Origin: Cyanodermella asteris | Lineage: Eukaryota > Ascomycota > Lecanoromycetes > Ostropales > Stictidaceae | NCBI GenBank assembly: GCA_900618795.1 | Contig: UYJD01000014.1 | Coordinates: forward strand, 356,559-420,558 | Length of the DNA: 64,000 bases | Direction: 5' to 3' | Part shown: in pieces, positions 15,435 to 64,000 of the stretch | How positions within the stretch are numbered: the stretch's first letter is position 1 | Layout of the letters: every line of letters begins with the position of its first letter | Program-made: the position numbers and the translations under genes | Notes under the pieces: generated by a model | What the model was told of the DNA's origin: nothing | The model's input: only the letters and a program-made list of their open reading frames with translations | The model's database searches: none

Positions 15435-16613
15435 GCACCGAGCATGCCAATCACCATCTCTGACCTACAGCGCAAGCGCCAAAAGTCGACGCCAGAGCAG
15501 AAAATCACGAGTAGGGAAACACTTATCCCTCGTACATGCATGTTTGTTGGCGTTTTGGAGCATATACCGGTGGGAAAAGATACCCTCTCAACTGTCATGG
15601 TTGCGGACATGGCCCCCGAGAAACAGGATATGGTCGGCGGGGATACTGCTTTCTCACTTATGAGTGCGTGTATAGTACAGTGGCAGGTTGTACTCAATTC
15701 TTATTGCATCTGCTATTCGGGCTTTCGGGGAAACCCTTTTACGGCGAACAATGTGTGAACAAACATAGAGTGGATTTTTGAACATCATCTTATCCGAGAG
15801 ACGTGTGCGACAGCTTTTCTCCCTTTCTGTAAACCATGCTAAGATTTTGACTATTACTGAGTAAATCAATCAATTCATCAGAGCCTTGGATTAAACTTTG
15901 AATGGGCTGAGTGAGAGTACCAGTGTTTGCATCTTGTAGGTCATTTCAGGCTGGTCGTGTCACGATCGAGCATCAACTGCAAAGTAAAGAAACAATGAAC
16001 AAGGTTTCCCGGGAAAGGTTGAGATTCTCGTCAGAGGAACTCGCGTGAGCATTTCGCGGTCCAGGGATGGACGTCGGCGACGCCAAGCCCTTCGACCTAA
16101 GCAGGCTGAACCGTACCTGGGTGGGTGTGACAGCGCTTCTCACATCGTGAGTTGCGCAAAAGTCCTTCCGTCTGACTTCGCTGGTTAGATCCCGTGCTTT
16201 ATGGGCTCATGATTTGCCTATGGCAGCATATACAAGTGCAATATTGTGTTGGCATACAGCTGCTTGTAGGCTCAGATGAAGCAGGACCTACGCCACGACC
16301 TTTTGTCAACCGGCCTTGCCACACTGCGGCTTCGTGAAGGACTGCAGTATTTATCATGTCTACACGTATCATGGTCTCACAAGTATGACTGGATTGCTGT
16401 TTGAGCATTTTGCAGGAGGGTGATTTATTCTGCGGGTATCAAAAGGCTACGTAAGTTCTCGACTTTGCTCAACTATCATGTGCGGGCATTGAGCGACTTT
16501 CGTCCACTCCCTCCATTCGAACTAGGCACAGACTGCACTCCGTGCTCATCGCGCTGATGAATCGTGAGGCAAGCGACCTAATCATCGAGGAGCACGACAT
16601 GCTGCAACAGGGT
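15435..16613. other. Gene-free spacer (1.2 kb)
   Basis: Between the 3' end of hfi1 and the 3' end of the broken F-box-like gene on the other strand. Short frames only, none over about 105 codons, and none with recognisable motifs. Nothing else seen. Confidence 0.5.
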
Positions 16614-17471
16614 TTATTCGCATGCGGTCATAGATCTCAACGGGAGCCCGCGTCTGTTCTGAATGAGATCGCTCACTAAACAGTCCACGGCTTTGTCAAA
16701 GGTTTCGACCGACTCCACAGTGCGCATACAAGGAGCGATCACAGATGCGCCACTATTCGATTGGGTAAACAGGCTTTTCCCAAAATGTGCCCAGTCCCTT
16801 TGAATGTGTACCGACCTCAGTTTGGGATCCATTATCACCAGACTCTGGAGCAAGCTAATCATTGCCCGAACGGAGCGTTTAAGCTCTCTCCGACTCCGCA
16901 TTGCCTCAAACCACCTGCAGCCCAGCCATATTCGAACCAGCTGCCCTCAGACCAGGCGTTGTCGCAAGGATTTGGAAAAGCCTTGGGAAGCCAGGCCGGG
17001 GGCGTTCGGATTGTGATCATCTGTAATGAATTGAATTGGGCGAGGTTCGGTTGAAACCGCTGACCAAGCACGTCTGCGTTGATCTGGAGATGATTCAGCG
17101 TTATGCTGGCTTTGTTCGCCGTGTATGCGGAGATGCTCATATGATGCACCTCGCTCTGGTTCAGGAAGCTTCGACGGGGTCGGCATGCCATGTCGAGCAT
17201 CCAATTCCATCCGGACTGCCAGGGTCGATTGTCAAGTACGAAAGTTGCATGCTTCCGATACTGCTTCGTGGCATCTTGATACAAAGATTTGTTGGCTCGA
17301 GCCAATTGCAGGCGGTTGATTCTTGGTCTGCGATGGCTTGTTTTGTCTGGGTGCCATGTCTCTGCATCTTTGACATCTTGAAGCACAACTTCAAAGACAA
17401 TCATGGAAACGATTTCGTCCGGACAGTCCAGGAACGTGAATTCTTGTTTTTGATGCCTTGAGAAGGGTCAT
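16614..17471 (-). pseudogene. F-box-like orphan gene, frames not continuous
   Basis: Function unknown. Minus-strand pieces read like the short F-box-type proteins common in ascomycetes. The first is EFTFLDCPDEIVSMIVFEVV, followed by RINRLQLARANKSLYQDATK, FVLDNRPW and LNHLQINADVLGQRF. The second is RRELKRSVRAMISLLQSLVI, then MDPKLRSVHIQRDW, ending at a stop at 16614. The only ATG with a good context (17471, MTLLKASK) is one base out of frame with EFTFLDCP, the frame change falling near a run of five A at about 17447-17451. The second join, near 16905-16970, can be made by a short 43-bp intron (gtctga...ctgcag) giving NAWWFEAMRSRRELK, but its donor is poor. Either the gene is disrupted at the A run, or translation starts lower at ATG 17404 and loses part of the F-box. 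Confidence 0.5.
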
Positions 17472-17969
17472 CTTTGTTTGTGCTCTTGTTGTGTGTGCGA
17501 GATGCGCTGTCGACCTCAGGAGCAGGCTGCATGATTGCGTTGGTTGCAGCTGGCCGAAGTTGCACTCTTCTGAATTGTGAACATCCATTTGCCCTGCTTC
17601 AGAGCACCACTGATGCGAAGGGTTTGAGAGCGGCTCAACAAGTTTTCAATACTTGGCGCCGGGAAGCTGCAGCGGGTGCGAACGCGGCGATCAGTGAGGA
17701 CAATAGGAAATGTGAAGGGGCGCAGTGCGAGTTCTCTTGTTCACGAGACTGAGAAACGTTCTGATCACTCTGCGCTGAAAGTGAAGAGCTTCTCACCCCA
17801 GCCACCCTCACAAGCTCTCGCTCAAAACCTTTCTCTCACTCCGAAATCTTTCAAAACTCTCATCTTCTCTACCAAATCGATCCTCCCTACTGAACACCCA
17901 TCAAGCTTGGTACCAGTATCCTGAACCATCTGCACCCTCAATTCGTCATTATCCATACCATCAGCTACA
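17472..17969. promoter_or_regulatory. Divergent intergenic region
   Basis: 498 bp between the ATG of the F-box-like gene and the ATG of the first membrane/coiled-coil orphan. The right half (about 17800-17960) is a CT-rich plus-strand tract (ccctcacaagctctcgctc and similar) typical of fungal core promoters and leaders. No TATA box seen. Confidence 0.4.
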
Positions 17970-19574
17970 ATGCTGGGGACATTCGGCGCCACAGACGCAC
18001 TTGTCCTTTGTGGCCTTCCGTTCGCTCACAAGTCTGGGTACCGTCTCCAGTGGTTATTTTCTAATATCGCGGTCCCTCTGCTTACAGGACACACAATCTA
18101 CAATATCATTTCCCTGATCTGGTTGAGCTCTGGCTTGAACCCGTACGAAATCGCCGCGCTCGTGTGGATTCTAGCGCAGTGCCTCATCACAGTGTACTGT
18201 GCCGTGCCGAGCATACTTGCGAAATGGCAGTCGGCAAAACTCCTCGCCATCATCGTCTGGAACCGCTGTATCAGCGCCTGGATGTTCTGCTCCTCGTCAG
18301 TACAACATACCGCACTCACCTGCACCGCCACCGCAAAGTGCTTGTCCCTGCCCAGCCGCAAGACCACCAGCGACTGCGACGAGCCGGCTCCCACACAGAG
18401 CGAGCCAAGCAAGCCCCCTGAACAAACCCTGGACATCGACACGGAACAGATCGCAGCGGACCGGCAACAGGCAGAGGCGGCCAGACAAGCCCACATCAGA
18501 GACAAAATGATCAAACATTACAACAATTGCATGCAACAGGTAAAAGAGGAGGCAGCAGAAGCGCGCGAAGAGGCTCTGCGCAAGTCTCTCCAGTCACCAG
18601 CTCCAACACCAGTCCCTGCTTCCAAGATCAGAAGATATCTGCCGGACACAGTCCCCATTAGCGACCCTAGACTTCACACCCCGAGGATTCGCGAAGCCAG
18701 GCGGAAACACTGCGTTAACTGCTACCCTGATCCGGAGCTGGCAGAGTGGATTTTGGACCACGATCTTCCAATCGAGTCCTACGAGCACTACGCAAGAGGC
18801 AAAGCCGCGCGGCTTCAGGCAGAGCTGACAGCAACCGCACTAGCTATGGCTGCTGATGAGCAAGACAAGGTTGTACAATCTCCAATCGTACAGGTCTCGG
18901 AGGTCTCGGTACCTGAGATCAAGGTCACGCCCCCTGTGCTGGCACTGTCAACCGCTCCCAGCTCCGCGCCATCTCCCAACCATGCCAAGTCAACCGTAAA
19001 GGTCAAGTCCTGGGAGCAAATGCTGAAGCGAGCCGGTTCGGCCATCAACGTTCTGTCGCCGGATGAGGCCCTGCGCCAGAGCAAGGTGGCCAAGTCTCAG
19101 ATCATGGTCACGCCTCTTGTCATTACTCCTCCACAGAGCCCTTCGCTTGTCACCAAATCGGCCGTCAAGCCCAAGACCTGGGAGCATATGCTGGCATCAG
19201 CTGGCTCGGCTATCAACATCATCTCACCAGGTGAAGCTTTGCGCAAAAGCAAGATCATTATACCTGAAACTGAGGTCGCCGGCCCCGACCCGGATTTCTC
19301 AGCCAGCATCTTCGATGAGCCGATCTCTGAGACTGTGACATTTCCCACCCTTGTTCCGACCAACGGGTCGGCCCCATCACTTGCGTCTCCCGCAAGTGCC
19401 TCGCTTTCAGCCACCATCACCTCGACTCCTGCTCCGGCCGTTCCCTCAACTCCGTCTCCCGCCATTGTCTCGCCTCCATCTTCGGTCAACAACACGAAGG
19501 AGAAGAAGCAACAGGGTGCTGAGATTCAGAAGGCGCTTCGGGCAATGCGTGCGAAGAAGAGGTCGAAGAAGTGA
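17970..19574 (+). CDS. Orphan protein: N-terminal membrane segments, coiled coil, tandem WExML repeat
   Basis: No known family recognised; 534 residues, single exon, ATG at 17970. Residues about 28-85 contain two or three hydrophobic segments (LLTGHTIYNIISLIWL; PYEIAALVWILAQCLITVYC). A charged helical region follows (ADRQQAEAARQAHIRDKMIK and EEAAEAREEALRKSL). A CVNCYPDPELAEWILDHDLP patch comes next, then two copies of a roughly 60-residue repeat ending in a Ser/Pro/Thr-rich tail and a very basic C-terminus (RAMRAKKRSKK). The product is probably anchored in a membrane with a long cytosolic tail. First of three same-strand genes with this kind of layout; the next starts 528 bp downstream. No splice signal is needed and codon use is even, so it looks like an intact gene. 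Confidence 0.7.
   Translation: MLGTFGATDALVLCGLPFAHKSGYRLQWLFSNIAVPLLTGHTIYNIISLIWLSSGLNPYEIAALVWILAQCLITVYCAVPSILAKWQSAKLLAIIVWNRCISAWMFCSSSVQHTALTCTATAKCLSLPSRKTTSDCDEPAPTQSEPSKPPEQTLDIDTEQIAADRQQAEAARQAHIRDKMIKHYNNCMQQVKEEAAEAREEALRKSLQSPAPTPVPASKIRRYLPDTVPISDPRLHTPRIREARRKHCVNCYPDPELAEWILDHDLPIESYEHYARGKAARLQAELTATALAMAADEQDKVVQSPIVQVSEVSVPEIKVTPPVLALSTAPSSAPSPNHAKSTVKVKSWEQMLKRAGSAINVLSPDEALRQSKVAKSQIMVTPLVITPPQSPSLVTKSAVKPKTWEHMLASAGSAINIISPGEALRKSKIIIPETEVAGPDPDFSASIFDEPISETVTFPTLVPTNGSAPSLASPASASLSATITSTPAPAVPSTPSPAIVSPPSSVNNTKEKKQQGAEIQKALRAMRAKKRSKK
18918..19266 (+). repeat. Internal tandem duplication in the first orphan gene
   Basis: Two coding units, about 18918-19100 and 19101-19266. 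Both begin I(K/M)VTP, pass through a Pro/Ser stretch, and end in a conserved core: KSWEQMLKRAGSAINVLSPD in unit 1 and KTWEHMLASAGSAINIISPG in unit 2, each followed by EALR(Q/K)SK. The core is more conserved than the linker, which suggests selection on the motif and not a very recent duplication. Confidence 0.8.
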
Positions 19575-20102
19575 TCAGTCCAAGGAGTCGATGAGGACCC
19601 AATAGGTTCTGCAACAGCTTCAGAGCAAGCTTGAATTCTACATCTGGGTATCCTGCTAGACTACAAAGTCACGCAGAGTATCTGGTGTCTGTTTATAGCG
19701 ATGTATTTACTTATTGGTCATGCTGAAGGAATGAACGGGAATGAGGCCCCCTATGTTTCCTCATTCTGAATCTGAGGCATTAGCTAGAATAATCAATGAC
19801 GTGCCTTATGAGAATCTTGAATTATGAACCTATGCCGATGTCGACGTGGGTTGGATGACGTAGATTTGAAAAGTCCAGCGGTCGAGTGAAGCAGCTTGCA
19901 TGCCCGCCTGCCGCCCGAGCCCACTTGGTGACAATGAGTAGGCCCAGCCGCTCACTGAGTCATGCTAGCACAATCTTTATTTAGAGATTTCTCGCGAGAT
20001 TTTCATCAACACGCTCTCAACACACTTGCGTACAGCTCCGTTGACGATAAACCAATCCTCATCAAGCTTCAACTACACACAACTTCAGTTATTATCGACA
20101 AT
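19575..20102. other. Intergenic spacer (tandem genes)
   Basis: Between the first and second membrane/coiled-coil orphans. The stretch 19962-20102 is open in frame with the next gene from an upstream ATG at 19962, but reads like a leader. I treat it as 5' untranslated. Confidence 0.4.
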
Positions 20103-21621
20103 ATGTCTCCAATTGACTATTCTGAATCAGTCCTTTCGCATCAGGAGGAATCATTGAGCATTTTCCTCAAGCCCACATCACCACCATGGGCGATTTGCAC
20201 TCGTCAAGTCTGCGCGGACCTCCTCCAAGCATTCCTCATGATCATCGCTATCGCGATTGTTCCTGTGCTGATTCTCGCTTTTGGCACCTCTGATGGACTT
20301 CAGATGAGTGACTCAGCTGCCAAAATCATCGTCTTCATGTTCAGCTACAACGGACTCCCCGCGCGCCTGTCGCTACGCTCCTATGGCTCCTTCTCTGCCA
20401 ATTTGCGTACCTGAAAGCTGCGCCTCGTCATCATCAGGAGGCAAAAGAATTCGTCAAATTTATCTCGGATTTCTTCTTCGGCACAACGAGCCCCCTGGCT
20501 GTTATGCAACCTGCGATGAAATGGCTCGTGCTTCCAAGTATCTGGGCCCACGGACAGTTCATTGACTTCATTGAGCACGAATTGCCGGCGCTATTCGACC
20601 AAATTTTCCTCGCAAAGGCGAAAAAGGTCTCTCCTGCCACTCCAGCGAGAGTCAGGCTGACTGGCGCGAGCATCACAATCAACGGCCATGCCGTACACCT
20701 TTCCAGCTCAAACAAGCCTCCCACACATTCCCCAAACAAAGGCCAGGCCACGAACTGTGAGACAATGCCATTGTCCCCCGAACTCCTGAACTTACCGAAA
20801 TTTCCGGTTGAGGACCGAAAGACACCTCTTCGCCAAACCAAGTCCTACATCTTCTCAGTCACTCGTCCCCGAGCCAACCTGCCAGAAACGGAAAAATCGT
20901 TGACCAACAATGGTCCCGATGCAGCCTCGCATCCCGGGGCACCGGCATGCAATGACCCGGCAGTTGAGGACGCCGAGGACGAATACAGTCCTCCAGAACC
21001 TGACCCTGTTCCGACCATCCAGCCGACGGAAGAAGATGTAACCTCAGTCACTCACGAGGTCGAGATTGAACAGCCACAGCAACGTGTCATCGGGGCCCTG
21101 AATGAGGAGTCTGTCCCCGTGAGCAATGAGAATCGCTTACCGTTGGGCGATCTCGTAACAGTCTCGCGCGCCCAACTGGAGCAGGCCAAGGCTCAGTGGA
21201 AACATCGCGCTGAGGCTGAGATGCACCAAGGCATAGCGCAGGCAAGGAGCCACTTCGAAGCTGAGGCCAAGAAGCACGTGAGCCAATGTGCAGAGGTGTT
21301 CGCCAAGAGTCTCGTAGCGGTAGAGGAAAGGGAGGCGAAGTGGCGGCAAAATGACGAAGCCCAGAAGGACCTTCTGAGGCAGCTCAGTAGCGCCCTCGTT
21401 GAGCAGCGCACTCAGGCTGCACTTGCAAGAGAATGCGGAGTCGTTGCGTTTGGCCAAAACCAGCAGCTGGTTTTGGAGCGGGATTTTCTTCGGGAAGAAA
21501 TCGAGATGGCTCGTCCCATCATCGAGGCGTACCAAATGGCACAAGTGCAAGGTATGTCAAATCAAGTTGAGGTAGAAAGTCAGGTATCCAAATGGACTAA
21601 CGTTTTACAGGACGCTTGTAG
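20103..21621 (+). CDS. Orphan protein: N-terminal membrane segment and C-terminal coiled coil
   Basis: No family recognised. ATG 20103 (gacaatATG) gives MSPIDYSESVLSHQEE, then a strong membrane segment (LLQAFLMIIAIAIVPVLILA) and a second hydrophobic part (AKIIVFMFSYNG). The frame then has to change near 20308-20417. The downstream frame reads QFAYLKAAPRHHQEAKEFVK, then IWAHGQFIDFIEHELPALFD, an acidic/proline-rich middle, and a coiled coil (VSRAQLEQAKAQWKHRAEAE to LERDFLREEIEMARPIIEAY). The change needs either an intron or a one- or two-base indel; the only frame-preserving GT-AG pair I found (20308-20417, gtgact...gaaag) is weak. The last intron is clear: 21552-21610, gtatgt...ggactaac...tttacag, giving the C-terminus VQGRL and a stop at 21621. 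An upstream in-frame ATG at 19962 is less likely. Second of the three tandem orphans. Confidence 0.6.
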
Positions 21622-22403
21622 GCCAATGGCACCCAAATTTATAGGCTGCTTGACATGACCGGTAGCTAAGCATCGAGTTTCCGCTGGAGGCGAGATCTGA
21701 ATCGAATCTTTTGGAAGAGCTGGGATAAAGTTGCTCACAAGGAATCACGACATTGAAGGAGAGCAACATGGAAAATATACGATCTTTTGCAATTAATAAC
21801 CAGTATCCTATGACGCAAGCTACACCTTACATATGCTGCAGTCAAGGAAGTCATTTCTCTACACAGTGAAAGTAGCCAGATGCGGGTCGTGACCTCAGCA
21901 CTTCATATTTCACGTTTCAAAATGTATCTGAAACCACATTGCTGTGGACTACAGCTCATGATCTGCTCATGTGGATGCCTTCACGGTCCCTTAAGCCATC
22001 AATTTAACTGTCCCAGTAGCCGCAATATGGCAGTTTCGGCAGACCCGAAGCAATCTAGGTGACGACCTGTACGCACGGTAGGTCACGCAGCGTGCCAAGC
22101 ATGAGTTTCGGATTGGGAAATATGTGAGTGAAGCTGAGCTCTTCGCACCGCGTGACTCAGGTCAATGAGAACTAAAAAGGGGCAAGGTAAAACAGCCCGC
22201 CATTCATCGGCGTAACGCGAGAAACAATGGCGCTGGAGACTTGTTTCGCCCGCACAAAATATTTCTTGCTGTTTGCTTGCCTTGAATGCTCAACAAAGCT
22301 TTTCCTCAGTTGCAGCTATATCTCCACCTCCACTTACGCCTCAGTCTACGATCACGCATTGCCTCTCACACGCTTTCGCATGCTTTTCAAGCGCTAGTCG
22401 CTT
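21622..22403. other. Intergenic spacer (tandem genes)
   Basis: 782 bp between the second and third membrane/coiled-coil orphans. Only frames of 60 codons or fewer. The last 100 bp are CT-rich on the plus strand, like the leaders of the two preceding genes. Confidence 0.5.
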
Positions 22404-25121
22404 ATGCAACCACTGCTTGAGATCAACATGATATCCTTGATAAGCGCACTTGCTAATAGCCTGCCGCAAGATCCTGGCCTGGGAATGGCACTAGGCTCGG
22501 AAAGTAGGCCGTCGAAACAGGGATTTTTTGAGGTTGAGTTTGAGTATGGAAGCTTCGCCTTCTCTGGTTGGACAGCTGTATGGTCTCTCGTCTACTATTG
22601 CAGCCACCGGCGGATTGAGGAAGAGCTAGACGACGAAGTCAGGTGCTGGCAGAGTGTTGCTCTCATCTTAGCTTGGGCCATTGTCAACTTGATCGCGGAG
22701 CACTACTCGAATACCTGGCACAGATGCGATGGCTTGTCCGACCGATTATGCCGTCGCCTTGCGCCAATCTCTTGCGGCCCGCAGCCTGACGATGCTCCTG
22801 AACGTCCCTCGCACAGACTGTCGCGGCACGTGTGGAGATTCTTCGTGCTACCAATTTTTCTCGCATTCGGATTGCTCTTCCATGGATTCTGGCTGTCATT
22901 GGGACCTACAGGCCAAAGCATTTGCGAGGCTTGGAGCTCTTTCAGCAATGTCAGCAACGATGACCACTGTGAGCAGCCTCTTGAGGTAGGCGACGTTGGA
23001 GATCTGGCCCCCGAAATCCCCTCGACAATTGTCAACCAAGTCCCAGAAGATCCGCCAGAGCCAATAATCGCTGGTAAGCATCAAATCATCGGCAGCGGAA
23101 AGAAAGATTTTGGAGAAGCAAACACGCCTGTCGACAATGTTCACAGTGTGCAGCAAGGACTTGCTCAAAAGACCACTGCGGAACCTCTCGTTCCTGAACA
23201 GAAGGACAGCGCGTACAACGAGCGTACCCGGGAAGAGACAGGATTTGAGCAACCTTTGGTGATGTCACAAGGGTCGGATATGGATAAAATTCATGATGAG
23301 CTATTGAAGATGGCTCTTGCAGAGATTGAGGCTCAAAATGCCGGGCTCCAATCACAGCTGAAGGATGCCACGAAAGAGAGGGACAATCTGAGCATGTATT
23401 TGAAAGATCAAGCCACTCGGGCTAAAAACAAGGTTGAGGCTTTGGAGCTCGAGAATCAACTACTCCAGAACAGGACTAAGAAAGCGCAGAGCGAGCTGGA
23501 GTCAAACATCAAGTCCAAAGACATTTGTGCCTCGCAGCTGGAATTAGTGAACCAGGAACGGGACGATCTCAGGGCGAAGCTCAACTCTCAAGGCCCTCAA
23601 GCAACAGAACTTGCGGCTCTACAGCATATGGCGGGACTCGCGAAGTCCCTCGAGGCCGAACGAAGTACCGTAAATCAGCTAAGAACGGAGCTCCAGGACC
23701 AGATCAACAGGACTGCCAGGGCCGCCGATGAGGCTAGCCAAGCGATAAACCTCCTCAACACCGAGAGAAGTGCCACAATTCAGCTCAGAGGTGAGCTTCA
23801 GAACCAATTCAACAGGGCTGAGAAGGCCACCTCCGAGGCTGAAGAAGCCAAGTCCACCTGCCATATCAGCATCAATACAATCATGAACGTGAGCGCTGAA
23901 AATGCAAGGCTCCACAAACAACTCGAATTCACTCAAGAGAGTCACAGACTTTTCGTTGAGCAGGCCAAGAATGAGCTGGGCTCGAAAGAGGATATAATCA
24001 AAGGCAAGTCACGGAGAGTCGAGGAGCTGCGATCTGCCGAACAAAGATTGGAAGAGCTAGAAATCCTCCACGAAGACGACGAGGCTCAGATTAAGGCGCT
24101 GGAGAGTGAGAACAAGAAGCTCAAGGCTAAAGCTGCGAGAGCCGCCGACTCAAGACCTCAGTTGAGACCCTCTACAAGAAAGGTAGCTCAAGAAACGCCT
24201 CTTGAAGCTGGTGTCAGCGCTGCAGAGTCTCAACAGGCACAAGCTGCCAGTCAGACGCCTTCTCAAGCTCAGTCCCAGGTTCACTCGCAAGCTCCTGAGC
24301 AACCTGTACCCAAAAGTCCTTTCTGGCCTCGTCCGCCTCCCACACAAGATCTTTTCAAGGCTACTCCCCAGATTGGTCCGCAAGCTCATCCTGTTGCATA
24401 CCGAGTCCCTCCCGCTGCTCCCCAACCTCCGCCTGTTATAACACCAGCTCCACCTTACAACCCGTGGGCGACTTCTGTTCGGCCAGCGAACGTGCCTCAA
24501 CAGCCACTCATGGCACCTCACCCATACGGACCCAATTATGGACCGGGCAAAGTGCCAGCTCCACGAAGCCCAAATAATCATCAACCAAGCGCTAACGATC
24601 TTCGCACGTCTGGAGTGCCCTGGTTGTTCGGTCCACCCAAGTCAACTCCAGCGGCTGCGACCTCCAACCCAACTGGTATACAGACAGCTAGCCAAGCGCA
24701 TGGTATCAACAGCGGCTCGACCAGATACCCGACCGGATTTGGAGGCCTTGTGCCGCCCCAATCAGTATGGGCGGCTGATTCCAGCAACCCTAAGCCGTCA
24801 CTTTTCAGCATACAATTAGCAGGGGCCGCCAAACTAGCAATAACATTGTCAAACTCGCTGGCAAGCAATACCAACAGCGACGCATCTTCACTCTTCAGCA
24901 GCCCAAAGGCGGCACCCACCAAGTCAGATACAACTGCCAAACCAGCGGCCACACCGATGAACACACAGGCAAGCGGTGCAGACGGGGCGAAGACCGCTGC
25001 GGCTGACGACGCAGGAGATGATGATGATGATGACAGCGATGGATATTCTGCAATCAGGAAGGCACAGTTGGAGGAGGATGAAAGCTTGAAGGCTTATGGT
25101 CGTGGGAAAAAGAGATGGTAG
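22404..25121 (+). CDS. Orphan protein: membrane segments, long coiled coil, Pro/Gln-rich tail
   Basis: 905 residues, single exon, ATG 22404; no named family recognised. Hydrophobic segments lie at about residues 50-66 (FSGWTAVWSLVYYC), 80-95 (SVALILAWAIVNLIAEH) and 138-165 (FFVLPIFLAFGLLFHGFWLS). A linker follows, then a continuous coiled coil from about residue 290 to 590 (for example LKMALAEIEAQNAGLQSQLK and LEILHEDDEAQIKALESENK). A Pro/Gln/Ala-rich region spans about 600-800. The end is acidic and basic (DDAGDDDDDDSDGYSAI, then KAYGRGKKRW). The layout fits a membrane-anchored tether or scaffold; that is inference. It contains a perfect-length 35-residue tandem duplication. Largest and last of the three same-strand orphans, and closest to the LTR-containing gap. 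Confidence 0.72.
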   Translation: MQPLLEINMISLISALANSLPQDPGLGMALGSESRPSKQGFFEVEFEYGSFAFSGWTAVWSLVYYCSHRRIEEELDDEVRCWQSVALILAWAIVNLIAEHYSNTWHRCDGLSDRLCRRLAPISCGPQPDDAPERPSHRLSRHVWRFFVLPIFLAFGLLFHGFWLSLGPTGQSICEAWSSFSNVSNDDHCEQPLEVGDVGDLAPEIPSTIVNQVPEDPPEPIIAGKHQIIGSGKKDFGEANTPVDNVHSVQQGLAQKTTAEPLVPEQKDSAYNERTREETGFEQPLVMSQGSDMDKIHDELLKMALAEIEAQNAGLQSQLKDATKERDNLSMYLKDQATRAKNKVEALELENQLLQNRTKKAQSELESNIKSKDICASQLELVNQERDDLRAKLNSQGPQATELAALQHMAGLAKSLEAERSTVNQLRTELQDQINRTARAADEASQAINLLNTERSATIQLRGELQNQFNRAEKATSEAEEAKSTCHISINTIMNVSAENARLHKQLEFTQESHRLFVEQAKNELGSKEDIIKGKSRRVEELRSAEQRLEELEILHEDDEAQIKALESENKKLKAKAARAADSRPQLRPSTRKVAQETPLEAGVSAAESQQAQAASQTPSQAQSQVHSQAPEQPVPKSPFWPRPPPTQDLFKATPQIGPQAHPVAYRVPPAAPQPPPVITPAPPYNPWATSVRPANVPQQPLMAPHPYGPNYGPGKVPAPRSPNNHQPSANDLRTSGVPWLFGPPKSTPAAATSNPTGIQTASQAHGINSGSTRYPTGFGGLVPPQSVWAADSSNPKPSLFSIQLAGAAKLAITLSNSLASNTNSDASSLFSSPKAAPTKSDTTAKPAATPMNTQASGADGAKTAAADDAGDDDDDDSDGYSAIRKAQLEEDESLKAYGRGKKRW
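23646..23855 (+). repeat. 35-codon tandem duplication inside the coiled coil
   Basis: Two adjacent units of exactly 105 bp, 23646-23750 and 23751-23855. Unit 1 starts SLEAERSTVNQLRTELQDQI, unit 2 starts LLNTERSATIQLRGELQNQF; both continue NR and an Ala/Glu-rich helix. Thirty-five residues is five heptads, so the duplication keeps the coiled-coil register. Confidence 0.8.
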
Positions 25122-25862: not shown

Positions 25863-26597
25863 TTCTATGNNNNNNNNNNNNNNNNNNNNNNNNNNNNNNN
25901 NNNNNNNNNNNNNNNNNNNNNNNNNNNNNNNNNNNNNNNNNNNNNNNNNNNNNNNNNNNNNNNNNNNNNNNNNNNNNNNNNNNNNNNNNNNNNNNNNNNN
26001 NNNNNNNNNNNNNNNNNNNNNNNNNNNNNNNNNNNNNNNNNNNNNNNNNNNNNNNNNNNNNNNNNNNNNNNNNNNNNNNNNNNNNNNNNNNNNNNNNNNN
26101 NNNNNNNNNNNNNNNNNNNNNNNNNNNNNNNNNNNNNNNNNNNNNNNNNNNNNNNNNNNNNNNNNNNNNNNNNNNNNNNNNNNNNNNNNNNNNNNNNNNN
26201 NNNNNNNNNNNNNNNNNNNNNNNNNNNNNNNNNNNNNNNNNNNNNNNNNNNNNNNNNNNNNNNNNNNNNNNNNNNNNNNNNNNNNNNNNNNNNNNNNNNN
26301 NNNNNNNNNNNNNNNNNNNNNNNNNNNNNNNNNNNNNNNNNNNNNNNNNNNNNNNNNNNNNNNNNNNNNNNNNNNNNNNNNNNNNNNNNNNNNNNNNNNN
26401 NNNNNNNNNNNNNNNNNNNNNNNNNNNNNNNNNNNNNNNNNNNNNNNNNNNNNNNNNNNNNNNNNNNNNNNNNNNNNNNNNNNNNNNNNNNNNNNNNNNN
26501 NNNNNNNNNNNNNNNNNNNNNNNNNNNNNNNNNNNNNNNNNNNNNNNNNNNNNNNNNNNNNNNNNNNNNNACCAACCCGTGCCCGCGTTACATTCTA
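25863..26597. mobile_element. LTR element or solo LTR largely hidden by the N gap, with 5-bp target duplication
   Basis: The five bases ttcta occur at 25863-25867 and again at 26593-26597. Just inside the left copy is TG (25868-25869), then the run of N (25870-26570), then 22 bp ending in CA (26571-26592). TG...CA ends with a 5-bp target duplication are the hallmark of LTR retrotransposon insertion, and the 22-bp end is identical to that at window positions 23-44. The gap is 701 N and may be a nominal size, so whether this is a solo LTR or a full element cannot be judged. Superfamily and completeness unknown. Identity of the two visible ends suggests a fairly young family. Confidence 0.8.
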
Positions 26598-35845: not shown

Positions 35846-37165
35846 TCAGTTCGGCAAGTTTTTGTCAATGATTGATTGCGACAGGATCTTGCTGAATTCA
35901 AGCACCCTTGCTGCAGCGGCTGCGGCTTCTGAAACCTCAGTCATGGGTGGTTTCGGAGCTTGTTGATCAACCATCAAGGTGATTGCTGTTCTTGGAGGCT
36001 CTACCATCATCAGATCGATCGCGCTGGATGCTTCGCTCCTTTTGGTCAACTCGTGCTGCGTCGATTGGTATGACTGCGTGAGCTCATCTCTCTCGTGCTC
36101 AAGCTTGCGCATTTTGGCGTAGACTGATGCGAATTCTTCTTGGTAGTTCTCGATGGAAGCCCGGCACACCTTGAGATCGGCAATGGCTGGTTCGAGCTCA
36201 CTTCTCAATCCTGCAATTCTCCTTTGAGCAGCCTCCAACTCATGAGCGGATGCTGACATTGCAGCTTTCACGACATTTAGCTCTTCGTTACGACTTGTTA
36301 ACTGCCTGGAGAGATTGCTGCTATAACGAAGCAAGACAGTAATGTCGTCGCAGCCGGCTGGCAACTCGTCCAGGAGCCCTTGTTCGATGTCCAAGCACAC
36401 AGCTTCTCGGAGTAGATCACGCTCCTTGCGAAGACCGTCAGCATTGGCCAGGGCCATAGAGAGCTTTGTTTGAATGATGTCGATCTCAGGTACCCTGTCG
36501 TCGCCGAACATCAGCCCTCGCTGGAAAGTGCTGCTGTCCAATATCGCTTGAAGGCGACTCACTTCCTTCCGTGCGCCATCTAGTCGTAGTTCCAAGCTCT
36601 TATTCCTAGCCAGCAGGCTCTGAGCACCGGGAAGCTCAATTTGAGCAGTTTCCAGCAATGCAACCTCTGTTCCGGCTAAACCATGCTTTTTTACCGTCTC
36701 GAACTCTTCCTCTGCAATCATCTGCCAAGGATCGGATTGTTTAATCACTCCCTCGGAATTGGGCGTGTTGTTCTTATGAGCCCGCCCGTCTTCAGACTGA
36801 GGGCCAATATTGCAATCTGTCTGGAGCTCGCCCTTGTCATTCGTCGGGGCCTCGCTTTCTTGCCCCTTGAGCGTTTCCACGTCCTTGTGCAGCAGCTCCA
36901 TCTTCACCAGGTCAATTTCCGACTGGAGACGTACGTTCTCTTTTCGAAAGTGGTGACATATTCTGAGAAGGATTGAAATGATCCAAACAGCGAGAGCCTC
37001 CGGCTGACGGCTCGAAAACATGGAGAGAAGCAATGCGGCGGGATCTGGTAAATGCTTTTTCCAAGATTTCATGGGATGACGCTCGTCGGTCCACTGGTCG
37101 TCGACACCAGTCGTTGGACTGGCACCCATATTTAAAGCCCCGAGTTGAGTGGGGGAATCCATCAT
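35846..37165 (-). CDS. Orphan protein: one membrane segment and long coiled coil
   Basis: 439 residues, single exon, ATG 37165 (MMDSPTQLGALNMG; a second Met follows directly). A hydrophobic segment lies at about residues 55-72 (EALAVWIISILLRICHHF). It is followed by charged helical sequence with heptad spacing: ENVRLQSEIDLVKMELLHKD, LARNKSLELRLDGARKEVSR, YSSNLSRQLTSRNEELNVVK and YAKMRKLEHERDELTQSYQS. A conserved-looking EEEFETVKKHGL patch lies at about 156. The Ala-rich helix near the end (VSEAAAAAARVLEFSK) finishes the chain. No family recognised. Layout resembles the three orphans at 17970-25121, 10 kb away on the other strand, but I see no direct sequence match to them. Confidence 0.65.
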   Translation of the reverse strand: MMDSPTQLGALNMGASPTTGVDDQWTDERHPMKSWKKHLPDPAALLLSMFSSRQPEALAVWIISILLRICHHFRKENVRLQSEIDLVKMELLHKDVETLKGQESEAPTNDKGELQTDCNIGPQSEDGRAHKNNTPNSEGVIKQSDPWQMIAEEEFETVKKHGLAGTEVALLETAQIELPGAQSLLARNKSLELRLDGARKEVSRLQAILDSSTFQRGLMFGDDRVPEIDIIQTKLSMALANADGLRKERDLLREAVCLDIEQGLLDELPAGCDDITVLLRYSSNLSRQLTSRNEELNVVKAAMSASAHELEAAQRRIAGLRSELEPAIADLKVCRASIENYQEEFASVYAKMRKLEHERDELTQSYQSTQHELTKRSEASSAIDLMMVEPPRTAITLMVDQQAPKPPMTEVSEAAAAAARVLEFSKILSQSIIDKNLPN

Positions 37166-63470: not shown

Positions 63471-64000
63471 GGGGGGGGGGGGGGGGNNNNNNNNNNNNNN
63501 NNNNNNNNNNNNNNNNNNNNNNNNNNNNNNNNNNNNNNNNNNNNNNNNNNNNNNNNNNNNNNNNNNNNNNNNNNNNNNNNNNNNNNNNNNNNNNNNNNNN
63601 NNNNNNNNNNNNNNNNNNNNNNNNNNNNNNNNNNNNNNNNNNNNNNNNNNNNNNNNNNNNNNNNNNNNNNNNNNNNNNNNNNNNNNNNNNNNNNNNNNNN
63701 NNNNNNNNNNNNNNNNNNNNNNNNNNNNNNNNNNNNNNNNNNNNNNNNNNNNNNNNNNNNNNNNNNNNNNNNNNNNNNNNNNNNNNNNNNNNNNNNNNNN
63801 NNNNNNNNNNNNNNNNNNNNNNNNNNNNNNNNNNNNNNNNNNNNNNNNNNNNNNNNNNNNNNNNNNNNNNNNNNNNNNNNNNNNNNNNNNNNNNNNNNNN
63901 NNNNNNNNNNNNNNNNNNNNNNNNNNNNNNNNNNNNNNNNNNNNNNNNNNNNNNNNNNNNNNNNNNNNNNNNNNNNNNNNNNNNNNNNNNNNNNNNNNNN
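63471..64000. other. Poly-G run followed by an assembly gap
   Basis: Sixteen G in a row (63471-63486), then N to the end of the window. The homopolymer probably stopped the assembly. Nothing can be said about what lies in the gap. Confidence 0.9.

Follow-up and report, generated by a model that had tools for sequence, protein, structure and literature searches.

Membrane-anchored coiled-coil tethers, such as the golgin-like and mitofilin-like proteins, are a generic class with which the proteins described here can be compared. Like such tethers, the product of gene C combines hydrophobic helices with a long coiled coil and ends in a flexible tail, but no domain of these families reaches its cut-off in C.

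The second comparison is with fungal orphan genes. Pyronema is reported to have 5,737 orphan genes (PMC3778014), and in Zymoseptoria tritici orphan genes account for 10.9% of the genes on the core chromosomes (PMC4502367). The orphan genes of Z. tritici are described as clustering beyond chance, showing decay, being shorter, and more often lacking Pfam domains (PMC5082898). The tendency of orphan proteins to be shorter appears in both PMC3778014 and PMC5082898, and PMC12684174 describes synteny as the test of gene origin. Among the matches listed from the literature on orphan genes, no title concerned a comparable gene trio.

The locus described here, with its three genes A, B and C, resembles the orphan regions of Z. 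tritici in being a series of consecutive domain-less genes amid conserved ones, one of which, B, has an interrupted frame. It differs in that the Z. tritici regions represent intraspecific presence or absence between two assemblies, whereas A, B and C are seen here in one genome, and in that the Z. tritici orphan proteins are short, whereas A and C are long (PMC5082898). We consider, with a probability of roughly two in three, that A, B and C form a small cluster in which the genes are unrelated to one another, lack characterisation and are probably poorly conserved, and which lies between conserved genes of a fungal chromosome.

Locus and coding potential

The window (the whole stretch of 64,000 nucleotides analysed here) is part of a genome of 28.5 Mb in 25 contigs. 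Neighbouring ORFs carry the Pfam domains P450, GH64 glucanase, WD40, FUSC, SAGA-Tad1 and class II tRNA synthetase, and on the basis of its conserved domains we take the window to be part of a fungal chromosome that carries conserved genes. It also contains an ORF with a KCH ('Fungal potassium channel') domain, a protein kinase ORF followed by an ORF that carries a p21-Rho-binding domain, and KH-domain ORFs that we take to be vigilin-like. Runs of N are present at 25870-26570 (701 bases) and 63487-64000 (514 bases), each of them an assembly gap or withheld sequence.

A first-pass annotation of the window had described three consecutive genes on one strand. All three are present, as consecutive coding regions on the + strand (A, 17970-19574; B, about 20103-21621; C, 22404 or 22428 to 25121; Table 1). 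A profile of codon log-odds, for which nine of the window's conserved ORFs served as the training set, gives the top score to the genes' own frame in most of the intervals scored, with a rival frame equal or higher in a few. The signal supports frame 0 for A and for C, and is weak (about -0.07 to 0.03) across part of the hydrophobic region of each, at 17,940-18,300 in A and 22,620-22,980 in C. For C, the ATG at 22428 (ATCAACATG) has a better start context than that at 22404.

Table 1 Features of the locus, in window coordinates.
Feature	Position	Strand	Description or basis
Gene A, single ORF, 534 aa	17970..19574	+	Hydrophobic N-terminus, charged helix, Ser/Pro/Ala-rich tail
A, predicted helices, aa 24-52, 58-78, 87-125	18039..18344	+	Single-sequence AlphaFold2, block pLDDT 35-67; hydropathy
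A, charged helix, aa 158-207	18441..18590	+	AlphaFold2 blocks aa 161-210, pLDDT 80-88
A, internal repeat, two copies, 101 nt, 72% identical	18985..19253	+	Signature SWEQML..AGSAIN..SP.EALR.SK
B first frame (B1), 103 aa from ATG 20103	20103..20414	+	Strong hydrophobic segment, aa 43-61
B second frame (B2), body ORF	20312..21621	+	End 21621 if 3' intron spliced, 21658 if unspliced
B 3' intron, canonical fungal type, 59 nt	21552..21610	+	GTATGT ... CTAAC ... ACAG
Gene C, 905 aa (897 aa from ATG 22428)	22404..25121	+	Hydrophobic N-terminus, coiled coil, Pro/Ala/Ser-rich tail
C, predicted N-terminal helices, aa 42-60, 67-94, 133-172 (from 22428)	22551..22943	+	Single-sequence AlphaFold2
C, coiled coil, three strong stretches, 236 residues in total	23286..24167	+	Coiled-coil scoring, shuffles
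Gene D, 583 aa	27848..29599	+	Two N-terminal hydrophobic segments; extends family-less run

Gene B had been treated as one gene. Its coding region stands, but not as a single open frame: the coding signal starts in frame 0 at about 20,010 and shifts to frame 2 at about 20,370. The ORF of B1 is open from an earlier ATG, at 19962. A canonical intron bridging the B1 and B2 frames was rejected, there being a GTRNGY donor in none of the 117 frame-compatible candidates (donors at 20150-20419, lengths 20-249 nt, boundaries GT-AG, GC-AG or AT-AC). Decay of the gene, an intron of unusual type or an error in the assembly would account for the frame break.

Downstream of C lies gene D. With it, A, the B body and C make up an uninterrupted run of four ORFs, each 350 aa or longer and lacking a Pfam match above cut-off, between the SAGA-Tad1 and class II tRNA synthetase genes. 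Gene D matches nothing in Pfam at E up to 1, contains no coiled coil and is present as a single copy in its own genome. On the other side of the trio, a short ORF at 16859-17467 on the - strand resembles an F-box below threshold (E 0.067, 13.6 versus 21.6 bits), and is single copy in its own genome at E up to 0.01.

Family searches and clustering of orphans

Neither Pfam nor NCBIfam gave a match above the curated cut-off for A, B or C, and no PDB sequence matched A, B2 or C with an E-value below 0.3. In the search of their own genome, which scored only the best candidates from a first pass, A (E up to 0.001) and B2 and C (E up to 0.1) match themselves only. When matches with E up to 10 were admitted, C and B1 again matched only themselves with their N-termini, and the N-terminus of A had one extra match (E 0.31), which contains two stops and was judged to be chance. 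Viral contigs were scanned separately with A, with B2 and with an N-terminal portion of C, and prokaryote genomes with A; no relative was found in either. The view that the genes belong to no known family is thus borne out against Pfam, NCBIfam, PDB sequences and their own genome, and we infer that they may be restricted to a lineage.

The strongest of the other matches are sub-threshold. The coiled coil of C matches ASRP (E 0.0017, 17 versus 300 bits) and Rod_CreS (E 0.002, 17.7 versus 100 bits), and C scores 8 versus 729.4 bits with SMC_prok_A; as all three are below cut-off, C was rejected as a crescentin rod or SMC-type coiled coil. The hydrophobic stretch of B1 matches PrgI (E 0.0039, 18.1 versus 27 bits) and, at E 0.0079, a model for a symporter (15 versus 515.5 bits). 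We read these matches on C and B1 as compositional.

A background sample was taken from 18 stretches of the genome, each of 10 kb, and consists of the 59 ORFs that are 200 aa or longer and have a positive coding score; these are ORFs at the level of exons, without intron modelling, and include some that are open at the end of a stretch. For the rate of Pfam matches the sample was 53 closed ORFs, and all 20 of them with a length of 350 aa or more were scanned. Of these, 4 have no Pfam match at E 1e-5, as against 7 of the 15 ORFs of at least 350 aa in the window. The seven are A, the B body, C, D and the ORFs at 35846, 38261 and 48275, the last of which has a Pfam match (E 1.3e-05) above its own curated cut-off. 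In simulations with p=0.2, the frequency of the sample, a run of four among 15 ORFs arises in 1.6% of cases; the figure rises to 8% with the pooled frequency of 11/35 and to 30% with that of the window. The observed run amounts to no more than a mild cluster, and since it is unremarkable at the pooled or window frequency, clustering is weak evidence.

The codon signal, the failure to match any family, the single copy, the absence of mutual similarity (see below) and the run of four all argue for a cluster of unrelated and probably poorly conserved genes. Against it, the lengths of A and C are unlike those of typical orphans, and the window is itself rich in family-less ORFs. In a rival reading, A, B and C would be fungal proteins that are conserved but have escaped curation, with everyday functions in the cell such as tethering the ER or organelles, and their orphan appearance would be a limit of the libraries. 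Such a reading is favoured by the long ORFs with codon signal (534 and 897-905 aa), when set beside the shorter orphan proteins of the published reports (PMC3778014, PMC5082898), and by the further long family-less ORFs in the window; it is disfavoured by the best family signals, those to ASRP, Rod_CreS and PrgI, all being below cut-off. We regard it as possible, though rather unlikely, and rate A, B and C as an ordinary cluster of uncharacterised fungal genes.

Membrane segments and coiled coils

Hydropathy was calculated on the Kyte-Doolittle scale with a 19-residue window, and coiled coils were scored using an MTK-like matrix with a 28-residue window and score distributions. Protein A has one hydrophobic segment at a threshold of 1.6 (aa 61-79) and three further segments at 1.2 (1-19, 33-51 and 91-109). 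When its own N-terminus is shuffled, 191 of 1000 shuffles reach its hydrophobic peak, which is thus not above shuffles. B1 has one segment at 1.6 (43-61), with a peak reached by only 1 of 1000 shuffles, and the B body has a single segment, 18-36, at 1.2. Protein C has two segments at 1.6 (79-97 and 146-164, numbered from 22404) and none is added at 1.2; here the peak is above shuffles of its own N-terminus, 24 of 1000 reaching its value. The N-terminal hydrophobic segments of the first-pass annotation are therefore found as hydropathy peaks in A, B1 and C, with the reservation already made for A.

The charged or coiled-coil tails attributed to the three proteins fared less evenly with regard to the coiled coil. 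The coiled coil of C is strong, with no match to it in 300 shuffles, and the same result when the segment alone is shuffled. That of A is marginal, at 31 residues (aa 178-208), being reached by 2 of 300 shuffles of the whole protein and by 21 of 300 local shuffles of the segment. No coiled coil above 0.5 was found in the B body.

Single-sequence AlphaFold2 models, weak in both cases, were made for A and C, and each contains shorter helices besides its three longer N-terminal ones. In the model of A (mean pLDDT 56.5) the charged helix is the only locally confident part. In that of C (mean pLDDT 53.1) parts of the first helices are locally confident, with blocks up to 83; hydropathy backs the last two of its three predicted N-terminal helices, but not the first (42-60).

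A common plan of anchor and tail is consequently seen in outline only for A and C, whose tails are both rich in Ser, Pro and Ala, and is not seen in B as assembled. In the background sample, 15 of the 59 ORFs have an N-terminal hydrophobic segment and 10 have a coiled coil, but none has both, whereas both occur in 2 of 22 ORFs in the window, these being A and C. To find the combination in two of three adjacent genes is unusual compared with the sample, bearing in mind that the region was chosen for that trait and that the coiled coil of A is marginal. Its presence in both A and C weakly favours a shared plan.

Relationship among the three genes

Mutual similarity among A, B1, B2 and C was assessed using Smith-Waterman alignment against 200 composition shuffles, together with single-sequence hhalign. 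The scores of full-length pairs are reached by 22 to 155 of the 200 shuffles, the closest pair being B2 and C, and those of N-terminal pairs of A, B1 and C by 73 to 135. The hhalign comparison, in line with a check suggested in the first-pass annotation, gives probabilities below 1% throughout, and so no evidence of duplication.

These results bear directly on the suggestion that the genes are old tandem duplicates, diverged past sequence recognition but keeping a membrane-helix anchor and a tail. The tandem arrangement on the + strand is in keeping with it, as are the models of A and C, both of which are predicted to have three longer N-terminal helices, and the rarity of membrane segment plus coiled coil in the sample (0/59). 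However, the pLDDT values of these models are too low for fold comparison, the first helix of C has no support from hydropathy, and B has a 3' intron whereas an intron pattern scan found none in A or C. Because no alignment is above shuffles and hhalign stays below 1%, old duplication was rejected as the origin of the genes, and we hold it to be improbable. At the level of sequence, no sign of mutual descent among A, B and C is detectable. A hydrophobic start followed by a charged tail is insufficient ground for calling genes related.

Alternatively, neighbouring genes could here encode membrane tethers that interact and function as a set. The genes are indeed adjacent, and the coiled coil of C is strong; however, gene neighbourhood is in fungi a weak sign of joint function, the frame of B is interrupted and its coiled-coil score stays at or below 0.5, and the coiled coil of A is marginal, which makes such a set very unlikely. 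The same low standing is given to the combined proposal that A, B and C are lineage-specific membrane tethers that co-assemble through their tails and derive from one ancestral anchor gene, diverged past recognition.

Possible roles of A, B and C

A and C are most likely endomembrane proteins, in which two or three N-terminal membrane helices would anchor a long cytosolic tail. In A this tail would be disordered, while in C a self-associating coiled coil would keep the flexible Pro/Ala-rich tail off the membrane. Gene B probably encodes, or once encoded, a membrane segment like those of A and C, followed by a low-complexity body, its frame being broken in the assembly. The membrane location, topology and oligomerisation are inferred. 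The locus is compact, and the origin of these long uncharacterised membrane proteins would be traceable by synteny if sister genomes were compared.

Two further similarities at the locus were considered. A 25-nt match between 15767-15791 and 18743-18767 was rejected as a shared motif and taken as chance, because a six-frame reading of 15500-17000 shows only a short stretch around the match. The similarity between C and the coiled-coil gene at 35846-37165 is above most shuffles (4 of 200 reach the score), and probably reflects common coiled-coil composition. This gene, on the - strand, encodes a protein of 439 aa and has a sub-threshold match to ATG16 (23.1 versus 33.7 bits).
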